From positions 1 through 52,808 of the forward strand of contig JAUSHX010000003.1 of the NCBI GenBank assembly GCA_030648265.1: a stretch of 52,808 nucleotides of DNA. The letters run 5' to 3'. Source of the stretch: a bacterium (lineage in GTDB: Bacteria; Patescibacteriota; Minisyncoccia; Phycocordibacterales; UBA2100). The position numbers and the translations under genes are program-made. The notes under the pieces were generated by a model. The model saw nothing but the letters and a program-made list of their open reading frames with translations, searched no databases and had not been told where the DNA came from. Positions 34,866 to 37,779 of this stretch are shown here, one piece after another. Numbering within the stretch: the stretch's first letter is position 1; every line of letters starts with the position of its first letter.

Positions 34866-34923
34866 GTTAACAGTATATGGTATATCGTATTTAGTATCTG
34901 GTATAAAACTGAAAACCGGGGGA

Positions 34924-35304
34924 TTAAATGCGATCCGATGCGGAGCGCAAGAGGCCCGTAAGAAGTTTTCCTGCGCGTTCAATCTGCGTCCGCAACGCTT
35001 GTAATGATTCCTTCGTCACGAAGGTAAGTTCATGGGCAATCAACATATGACTCTCAAGCTCCGAAAGTGAAGCGAGGGCCGTTTGGTAAAATCCTCGCTT
35101 ATCTTTACTGGTGCGGCGAGCAAATCCTTCTGCGATGTTAGCTGAAACAGAAACAGCCGCGCGACGCGTCTGACTCGTTAAGCCAAATTGTTCCTCCGCA
35201 GGAAATGACGAGGTGGCCTTGTATGTCAGAACTGCAAGCAATTTTGCCTCTTGCCATGCGTGCAAGTCTGTAAAATGTCGGATTTTGACGTTGTTGTTTT
35301 CCAT
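34924..35304 (-). CDS. Four-helix bundle (S23/IVP-like) protein
   Basis: FTDLHAWQEAKLLAVLTYKATSSFPAEEQFGLTSQTRRAAVSVSANIAEGFAR. Confidence 0.9.
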   Translation of the reverse strand: MENNNVKIRHFTDLHAWQEAKLLAVLTYKATSSFPAEEQFGLTSQTRRAAVSVSANIAEGFARRTSKDKRGFYQTALASLSELESHMLIAHELTFVTKESLQALRTQIERAGKLLTGLLRSASDRI

Positions 35305-35334
35305 ACAAAATACGATATACCAAATACAAAATAC

Positions 35335-37083
35335 CTATTCCGTAACCACGCGAAGTACTTCCTCTATTGTCGTGATACCTTGCGCCGCTTTAAATATTCC
35401 GTCTTCGCTCATGGTGAGCATGCCCTCCGAGCGCGCCTGTTTTTCAATTGCGGAACCTGCGTCAGCCTTCATCATCAATTCCTTAATCGTGGCGGTGACC
35501 GGAAGCACCTCGTGGATTCCAATGCGCCCGGCATAGCCGGAAGGGCAGAGGGCGGTTTCTTTAGGGTGAGAGAATTGCACGCTCTTCCATGTCGCGTCTT
35601 TCGGGAAAATTTTATCTTCCTTAAGCGCCCGCAGAACAGCGCCGACATCAACCTCCTTCTCAAGCTGCGCCTGTTCATCGCGCGTGAGGTTGTGTTTCTC
35701 GCGCTCCGGGCAAAGCTTGCGCACCAATCGCTGTCCGATAATTACGCGCAGGGTTGAAACAAGAAGGAACGGCTCTACCCCCATGTCTAAAAGGCGCGGT
35801 ATGGCACCCGCCGCGGAATTCGTGTGCAGAGTTGAGAGCACGAGGTGGCCGGTGAGCGCGGCATTAATCGCCAGAGATGCGGTTTCTTTATCGCGGATTT
35901 CGCCGACCATGATTATGTCCGGGTCCTGTCGCACGAGGCTACGCAAACCGTTTGCAAAAGAGAACCCGATTTCGGGACGAACCTGCGTCTGGTTGATGCG
36001 CGTCATCTGATATTCAATCGGGTCCTCTATCGTTGAGATATTCACGTCGGGAGAGTTAACGAGGTCCAAGAGCGTGTACAGCGTCGTGGACTTCCCCGCC
36101 CCGGTCGGCCCAGTGGCCAAAATCATTCCTGTCGTACCGCGCATCGCTTCGTGCATGCGCTCCAATGCGATACCATGAAAACCGACGGCCTCAAGCGTGA
36201 ATCCGGAAATATTGTCGCGCAAAAGGCGCATTACGATTTTCTCTCCGAAGTAAGTCGGCAAAACGGAAACGCGGAAAGATATTTTCTCGCCGCCGGATTC
36301 CGCTCCGAAGCGGCCGTCCTGCGGGAGCCGGTGTTCGTCAAGGCGCATATTGGCAAGCACCTTCACGCGCGCGGTAATCGCATTCGCGGCGTGTTTCGGA
36401 AGCTCCATCGCATCATGCAAAATACCGTCTATGCGGTAGCGTATGAGGAGCGATTCCTCCATGGGCTCTATGTGGATGTCGGAGGCGCCCTGCGCATTTG
36501 CGTGCCGGATGAGCGTGTCCACAATTCGGACAGCCGGCACTCCCTCGGCGACCTGGCGCAGGTCTTCCTCCTCCCCCTCCTTCCCTCTCGGCGCGGATTT
36601 GAGAAGCGCCGCGGTTTCGCGCTCAATAACATCGCCCAAATTATCCTTGAGCGACTGCTGATATTCCTTGAGGGCGTACTTTATCGATGCCACGTCGGTA
36701 AGCCGGGACAAAATCTTGAGATGCGTTTTCTTTTTAATGAAATCAATCGCCGCCAAATCGTCGGTGTCCAACATCGCAACCTCAAGTTCATCGCCGCGGC
36801 GGTTATACGCAACGATATTGTTGCGCCGTGCGACCGGCTCCGGAATAAGCGAGAGGGTCTCAAAGGGAATTTTTGTTCCGGAGAGCGAAACAAACGGAAT
36901 TCCAAGAATGTACGCATACGTCCTGCGAAGTTCATCTTCGCCTATGGCGCTCTTTGCGACGAGAATTTCACCGATTGACCGCCCCGATTCTTTTGCCTCT
37001 CGTTCCGCAACATCAAAATCTTTCTGCGAGACAAGACCCGCGTCCGCGAGAAACGATTTTAAATGTGTGTCGCTGATATACAT
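35335..37083 (-). CDS. pilB: Type IV pilus/T2S assembly ATPase
   Basis: ATGPTGAGKSTTLYTLL; GEIRDKETASLAINAALTGHLVLSTLHTN. Confidence 0.95.
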   Translation of the reverse strand: MYISDTHLKSFLADAGLVSQKDFDVAEREAKESGRSIGEILVAKSAIGEDELRRTYAYILGIPFVSLSGTKIPFETLSLIPEPVARRNNIVAYNRRGDELEVAMLDTDDLAAIDFIKKKTHLKILSRLTDVASIKYALKEYQQSLKDNLGDVIERETAALLKSAPRGKEGEEEDLRQVAEGVPAVRIVDTLIRHANAQGASDIHIEPMEESLLIRYRIDGILHDAMELPKHAANAITARVKVLANMRLDEHRLPQDGRFGAESGGEKISFRVSVLPTYFGEKIVMRLLRDNISGFTLEAVGFHGIALERMHEAMRGTTGMILATGPTGAGKSTTLYTLLDLVNSPDVNISTIEDPIEYQMTRINQTQVRPEIGFSFANGLRSLVRQDPDIIMVGEIRDKETASLAINAALTGHLVLSTLHTNSAAGAIPRLLDMGVEPFLLVSTLRVIIGQRLVRKLCPEREKHNLTRDEQAQLEKEVDVGAVLRALKEDKIFPKDATWKSVQFSHPKETALCPSGYAGRIGIHEVLPVTATIKELMMKADAGSAIEKQARSEGMLTMSEDGIFKAAQGITTIEEVLRVVTE

Positions 37084-37203
37084 GTTAGAGATTCTTACGA
37101 GCCTGCGAGTTAGAAGCTCTTACACCCTGTTAAACGCGGCCTCGGGGCCGCACCGCCTTTGGCGGGTTTAACAGGGTCTGAAAAATATAATCGCATATGC
37201 TCA
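37084..37203 (-). promoter_or_regulatory. Three-way-junction leader with 28-aa leader ORF upstream of pilB
   Basis: P1 37124-37135/37166-37177; inner GCGGCC-TCGG-GGCCGC and CCGCC-TTT-GGCGG; minus ORF 37110..37196 MRLYFSDPVKPAKGGAAPRPRLTGCKSF*. Confidence 0.65.
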
Positions 37204-37473
37204 TTATTTTTCTAGACACCCTGTTAAATACGATTTGAGGCGACTGCGTAAAAACATTTTGCCGTGATACGTCTTCAGATAAGACTCACGGTGTCGGGCA
37301 TCCTTGCGGTCTCGACATGCTTCATAATACACGAGTTCTAGCGGGCGCCGGTCTTTCGTTGACGATACACGACCGTGGCAATGTTCCTCAAATCGTCCTT
37401 TCAAATCATCGGCACTTCCAGTGTAAAACTTGTTATCTTTGCCCGACAACAAGACATACGTATAAAAATACAT
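37204..37473 (-). CDS. GIY-YIG nuclease family protein
   Basis: MYFYTYVLLSGKDNKFYTGSADDLKGRFEEH; enclosed by arms 37218-37229 and 37490-37501. Confidence 0.9.
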   Translation of the reverse strand: MYFYTYVLLSGKDNKFYTGSADDLKGRFEEHCHGRVSSTKDRRPLELVYYEACRDRKDARHRESYLKTYHGKMFLRSRLKSYLTGCLEK

Positions 37474-37585
37474 AGGTGGATTTGAAAGGATTTAACAGGG
37501 TTAATAAAAATATAGTCGCTACGCTCCTTATTTTTCTAAATTATAGCAGGAAAAACCGATGCAAAGTCGCATAAGCAACTTTTTC

Positions 37586-37625: not shown

Positions 37626-37779
37626 TCCGGCACCAGCCGGACGCTTTTTTTAGAAAAATAACAAATGGAACGAAGTGTAATGCGTATATTTTTCTTAATC
37701 CAGCACCTTCGTTTCTCAATGAAACAAAGGTGCTGGGTGTAAGATATTCTAATTCGCTTCGCTCATAACAATATCTAAC
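37626..37779 (+). promoter_or_regulatory. nusA leader: terminator-like hairpin, 20-aa leader ORF, inverted repeat
   Basis: TCCGGC-ACCA-GCCGGA then CGCTTTTTT; CCAGCACCTT/AAGGTGCTGG 37700-37736; ORF 37680..37742; AGATATT/AATATCT stem before ATG. Confidence 0.6.

Follow-up and report, generated by a model that had tools for sequence, protein, structure and literature searches.

The window analysed here, one entire contig of 52,808 bp from a 943-kb genome in 40 contigs (G000), raises the question of why a small gene for a GIY-YIG nuclease should lie between inverted-repeat arms upstream of pilB. The protein retains the catalytic residues Y6, Y17, R27, H31, and E63. The genome is evidently that of a member of Patescibacteria, given that close homologues come from Patescibacteria MAGs. 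The features of this locus and the related features of the window are the following.

37204..37473, minus strand: GIY-YIG nuclease ORF, 89 aa (Pfam GIY-YIG, E = 1.3e-14)
37490..37501, minus strand: P1 5' arm, ACCCTGTTAAAT (sequence and covariation)
37218..37229, minus strand: P1 3' arm, ATTTAACAGGGT, coding for YLTG (sequence and covariation)
37479..37490, minus strand: P2 5' strand, TCCTTTCAAATC, in the leader immediately past the arm (covariation and fold)
37396..37407, minus strand: P2 3' strand, GATTTGAAAGGA, codons D-L-K-G (covariation and fold)
37386..37395, minus strand: P3 5' strand, CGATTTGAGG, codons R-F-E (fold and covariation)
37231..37240, minus strand: P3 3' strand, CCTCAAATCG, codons L-K-S (fold and covariation)
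37502..37541, minus strand: left outer hairpin (R1 family) with tandem GA/GA and a GC core (hairpin covariation and model)
37540..37548, minus strand: putative extended -10-like box, TGCTATAAT, 5' of the GIY-YIG ORF (sequence only)
37177..37217, minus strand: outer hairpin common to the GIY-YIG element and the next, ORF-less element
37124..37177, minus strand: ORF-less Y-shaped element before pilB
37084..37123, plus strand: right outer hairpin, terminating at the pilB start codon
19700..19840, plus strand: ORF-less element with both outer hairpins, 5' of sod
37648..37779, plus strand: nusA leader, with outer hairpins flanking another cassette (CCAGCACC..GGTGCTGG)

The first-pass annotation had placed the ORF 5' of pilB, likened its leader to that of sod, and proposed that its C-terminus is built from repeat sequence, all of which held: a single ORF-less element separates the ORF from the pilB ATG at 37083, the leader TATAATTTAGAAAAATAAGGAGC(..)GCGACTATATTTTTATTAACCCTGTTAAATCC differs from that of sod in the hairpin loop only, and the A-rich box that follows the 3' arm encodes LEK*. 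The ORF does lie inside the P1 arms, as had also been stated, but it does not simply replace the two inner hairpins; its coding sequence itself forms them.

The arms recur throughout the genome. Twelve elements carry ACCCTGTTAAAT/ATTTAACAGGGT arms, 11 of them without a GIY-YIG ORF. Exact ACCCTGTTAAA sites number 23 genome-wide, of which 22 form 11 pairs and the 23rd faces an arm with 1 mismatch, whereas the reversed pattern is found once; hence, the pairing is not a product of chance. With 1 mismatch allowed and the window considered alone, the excess of arms is weak (7 versus 3.1 expected). The layout in this genome is hairpin, P1 arm, interior, P1 arm, and mirror-image hairpin, followed by a start codon, usually CTAACATG, with rplK, rplE, rpmA, pyrE, sod, and pilB among the genes located 3' of such elements. 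Hairpins of the CCCAGCACC type, counted with a pattern that detects short ORF-less copies only, are present in 19 copies in G000 and in none in most relatives, and ORF-less copies of the CCCGTTAG type number 25 in another genome, G003. The second GIY-YIG gene of the genome (G000:C1:51445-51693) lies within ACCCAGCACC arms, with both outer hairpins present. Perfect hairpins of 26-27 bp, CCCGTTAGARGC..GCYTCTAACGGG, in G008, G017, G022, G024, and others are possibly minimal relics of the CCCGTTAG family.

The outer hairpins covary strongly (both sides changed in 11 of 13 pairs; score 0.51 versus 0.20 when shuffled), and their model has 88 matches in this genome. Most of the matches retrieved lie as convergent pairs that enclose one of several CCC..GGG cassettes, predominantly ACCCAGCACC; the nusA leader is one case. 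These hairpins do not belong to the core of the element, because they are limited to one genus (7 of the 17 genomes searched, all seven of this genus) and are missing at the CCCTGTTAAAT GIY-YIG element of G028, from another family. The two ends are mirror images, with the GA/GA motif on opposite strands, which favours recognition of DNA ends over RNA. Dozens of start codons in G000 (L302-L341) are preceded by paired hairpins around differing cassettes, and identical 39-bp cassettes are found between diverged hairpins, a pattern suggesting, from the sequences, that cassettes may have been replaced at old slots.

GIY-YIG homologues are encoded in 38 of 41 related genomes. At the order level, 38 of 75 loci had a flanking inverted repeat whose score equalled or exceeded the 99th percentile of mismatched pairs, compared with none of 69 displaced flanks. 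Across phyla, 80 loci were obtained from a scan of 84,980 species genomes, covering about 30 phylum-level groups, including Thermodesulfobacteriota, Planctomycetota, Bacteroidota, Aminicenantota, and many CPR groups; most are from MAGs, with NaphS2 (L187) and Desulfosarcina cetonica (L205) being named strains that carry no MAG label. Because the mismatched-pair control is inflated here by arms common to different loci, displaced flanks served as the control, and an inverted repeat (score of at least 11) flanked 62 of the 80 loci compared with 2 of 70 displaced flanks. The presence of arms at other GIY-YIG homologues, a check proposed in the first-pass annotation, is thereby borne out, mostly with the same arm type and, for most of these arms, without outer hairpins. 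The arms start with CCC and finish with GGG, the median length over 104 loci is 293 bp, and the stop codon of the ORF falls inside or ahead of the right arm in 91 of the 104. The nuclease is the sole ORF of the element, which is too short for another. Arm type tracks the nuclease tree (21 changes versus 78 when shuffled), the two being not fully independent since the 3' arm is partly coding; of the 155 GIY-YIG loci placed in the tree, 41 lack arms, which counts against a mobile element. By profile match, the nearest solved structures are UPF0213 proteins, followed by SLX1, an enzyme that cuts branched DNA. At 2 loci (L027 and L106), the GIY-YIG ORF forms an in-frame fusion with the beginning of a prepilin gene; the right arm there encodes the prepilin leader (KSGKGGFTL or KVVRGFTL), and the mirror of that leader (MTPYHF) is encoded by the left arm.

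In the CCCTGTTAAAT family, the entire element corresponds to a three-way junction composed of the P1 arms, a P2 stem between the leader and the N/D-L-K codons, and a P3 stem between the R-F-E and L-K-S codons. Covariation was assessed on 44 distinct rows with 500 shuffles. P1 is 97.5% paired, with 22 two-sided cells versus 3.5 when shuffled. In P2, the 12 nt past the left arm pair with the N/D-L-K-x codons at 88.6%, compared with 24-56% for slid versions, and 108 two-sided cells were counted versus 34 when shuffled (maximum 53). P3 has 27 such cells versus 9. For each of the three stems, none of the 500 shuffles reached the observed value. The junction is predicted for 43 of the 55 ORF elements of this family and for the window copy (z = -5.2 as RNA and -6.7 as DNA). 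Each of the 26 ORF-less copies checked also adopts this junction, with inner hairpins of unrelated sequence, indicating that structure rather than sequence is retained after loss of the ORF. P2 and P3 are strand-specific and would be equally serviceable in RNA or DNA, which counts against the mobile-element explanation. The notion that a minimum free energy structure is conserved in every family was rejected, as the GTTAGA family has neither a fixed number of branches nor the leader-codon pairing; thus, the Y-shaped fold is claimed for the CCCTGTTAAAT family only. In 6 loci from other GIY-YIG families (L086, L080, L060, L057, L055, and L061), the predicted partners of the start codon are codons close to L-H-N or E-H-N, so that sequestering the start site may be a recurrent feature.

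Direct repeats of at least 4 bp border 29 of 108 elements, whereas 3.6 would be expected, and their lengths peak sharply at 4 bp. The repeats differ among families, being TGAN at TCCCGTTAG, TATG at CCCG, and AATT at CCCTGTTAAAT elements, and in several CCCGTTAG elements the left repeat copy supplies the nuclease with its sole in-frame ATG. AATT is found at a few CCCTGTTAAAT copies, whereas no target duplication was detected at the window copy or at most copies of that family, which counts against a mobile element. The comparison with empty sites, also proposed in the first-pass annotation, gave an uninterrupted site: the adk-map junction of G021 carries an insert with ATGATT at both borders, whereas six relatives (G000, G001, G004, G005, G010, and G013) have a plain ATGA stop/start overlap without an insert. 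At nusG-rplK, the GIY-YIG form is present in G014, an ORF-less form bounded by the same arms in G000, and other cassettes in G013 and G017, with most relatives being empty; upstream of pyrE, the ORF form in G008 corresponds to a same-arm ORF-less form in G000. The distinction initially drawn between an autonomous element and a MITE-like derivative is supported by these same-arm pairs at the same junctions in different species, with the amendments that there are several arm families, that the outer hairpins are genus-specific, that the inner Y is made by the ORF, and that movement driven by the nuclease is our inference.

Insertions in Patescibacteria occupy many unrelated sites, whereas many of those in Desulfobacterota recur at particular codons, with a few target bases altered. 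Four-helix-bundle genes of Desulfobacterota, Planctomycetota, and Bacteroidota are interrupted by elements of this kind at one conserved position and GxxExxY genes at another (L186, L187, L193, L212, L215, L217, L219, L209, L245, L213, L180, L190, and L199), as are transposase-like genes on the reverse strand; the four-helix genes were identified by profile search and the other 2 kinds by eye. In several genomes, the four-helix genes are broken at positions 41-43 to 45, with intact paralogues also present. From the sequences, the recurrent codon sites in Desulfobacterota look like the outcome of homing and count against transposition.

Collectively, the covarying inverted-repeat ends, the junction built from coding sequence and kept in ORF-less copies, the 4-bp border repeats, the empty site, the agreement of the ends with nuclease phylogeny, the spread of same-arm ORF-less copies within single genomes, and the UPF0213/SLX1 profile match lead us to consider the window locus, with a probability of roughly 0.6, an autonomous representative of a minimal mobile element about 290 bp long, the sole gene of which encodes a solo UPF0213/Slx1-like GIY-YIG nuclease and the folded form of which is the probable substrate of that nuclease. 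By analogy with the action of Slx1-type enzymes on branched DNA, the nuclease may recognise the branched, probably single-stranded, fold of its own element and cut at its base, and the element would then be pasted into a 4-nt staggered cut, with the GIY-YIG protein presumably catalysing the movement. The insertions that survive would be those whose duplication spares the stop/start junction (TGAN, TATG), so that copies would gather directly 5' of start codons. The P2 stem with the leader probably also restricts translation of the nuclease, and the ORF-less Y elements may be non-autonomous derivatives, either mobilised in trans or remnants of elements that lost the ORF. We know of no strand transfer by GIY-YIG enzymes, which weighs against transposition.

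A free-standing homing endonuclease cassette, in which the nuclease cuts a specific element-free allele, recombination copies the element into it, and the arms and fold matter only for expression and tolerance, appears unlikely. Its main argument is that four-helix-bundle, GxxExxY, and transposase-like genes have each been entered repeatedly at one codon; furthermore, the nearest NCBIfam model is a group I intron endonuclease, albeit with a score below the cut-off, and the conserved catalytic GIY-YIG residues are those expected of a homing enzyme. Homing does not readily account for 4-bp duplications at unrelated gene junctions, for same-arm ORF-less copies at many unrelated sites of one genome, or for a fold conserved without the ORF. 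The strand specificity of P2 and P3 and the RNA folding score would suit an intervening sequence acting at the RNA level, in which the stem provides tolerance in mRNA or rRNA (through RNase III removal or bypass), P2 silences translation, and ordinary recombination spreads the unit. A four-helix-bundle ORF of the window likewise lies inside a 25-bp inverted repeat, and GIY-YIG proteins encoded in CPR rRNA insertions have been found only in those that are neither group I nor group II introns, and were judged not to be spread by homing (PMC11270868), a result that also fits the element described here. We consider this RNA-level explanation rather improbable, since it leaves the 4-bp duplications unexplained and the mirror-image outer hairpins suit DNA ends. 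Finally, the hairpins could be regulatory leaders of this genome with the GIY-YIG gene as an accidental passenger, as the position of nearly all copies next to a start codon might suggest; however, the arms accompany the nuclease in many phyla, mostly without outer hairpins, which refutes this reading for the arms, and the junctions are empty in most relatives, making it highly implausible overall. A group I or group II intron was rejected, as neither the window nor ten loci yielded an Rfam intron match; at the gathering threshold, the only Rfam family in the window is a tRNA.

The mobile element resembles several known systems in part. Like REP/RAYT systems and IS200/IS605 derivatives, it combines a small nuclease or transposase gene, hairpin ends, and many intergenic ORF-less hairpin copies, but those systems use a Y1 HUH tyrosine enzyme, absent here, and have no junction built from coding sequence. 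With insertion sequences and their MITEs it shares terminal inverted repeats, short target duplications (29/108, with none at the window copy), empty sites (adk-map and nusG-rplK), and non-autonomous copies with the same ends; it differs in having no DDE, serine, HUH, or tyrosine transposase, in being smaller than 400 bp, and in arms that covary rather than keep a single sequence. Phage T4 has a cassette in which a nuclease travels together with a hairpin bypass sequence. The free-standing Seg/Mob endonucleases of that phage are likewise solo nuclease genes between genes, but undergo allelic homing and have neither inverted-repeat ends nor ORF-less relatives (PMC2988022). Intervening sequences of rRNA with S23/four-helix ORFs also place an ORF in a long stem within expressed genes, but encode another protein, whereas the GIY-YIG element is also found between protein genes and has 4-bp repeats. 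Group I introns and IStrons are similar in carrying a nuclease ORF within a folded RNA inserted in genes and differ in the intron match lacking here. By eye only, the arms resemble the RYYYAAC/GTTRRRY motifs of integron attC sites, in reversed order.

The open-access papers searched contain no account of prokaryotic GIY-YIG elements bounded by terminal repeats, and the small solo GIY-YIG genes common in CPR genomes are annotated mostly as bare nucleases. It is conceivable, though short of probable, that the element represents an undescribed class of prokaryotic transposable elements, in which a solo GIY-YIG protein acts on a Y-shaped single-stranded fold lying partly in its own gene, with structure-only non-autonomous derivatives. 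If so, at about 290 bp it would be the simplest autonomous transposable element known to us, would add a nuclease fold to prokaryotic transposition and explain intergenic hairpin families of streamlined genomes, and would open the GIY-YIG insertions in CPR rRNA genes to testing. It is unusual for a coding sequence to double as the structural substrate of its own product. A second kind of ORF within a stem is found beside pilB: at 34873-35327 on the minus strand, between pilB and the next type IV pilus gene, the 25-bp inverted repeat (92%) encloses the four-helix-bundle ORF (TIGR02436, 34924-35304).
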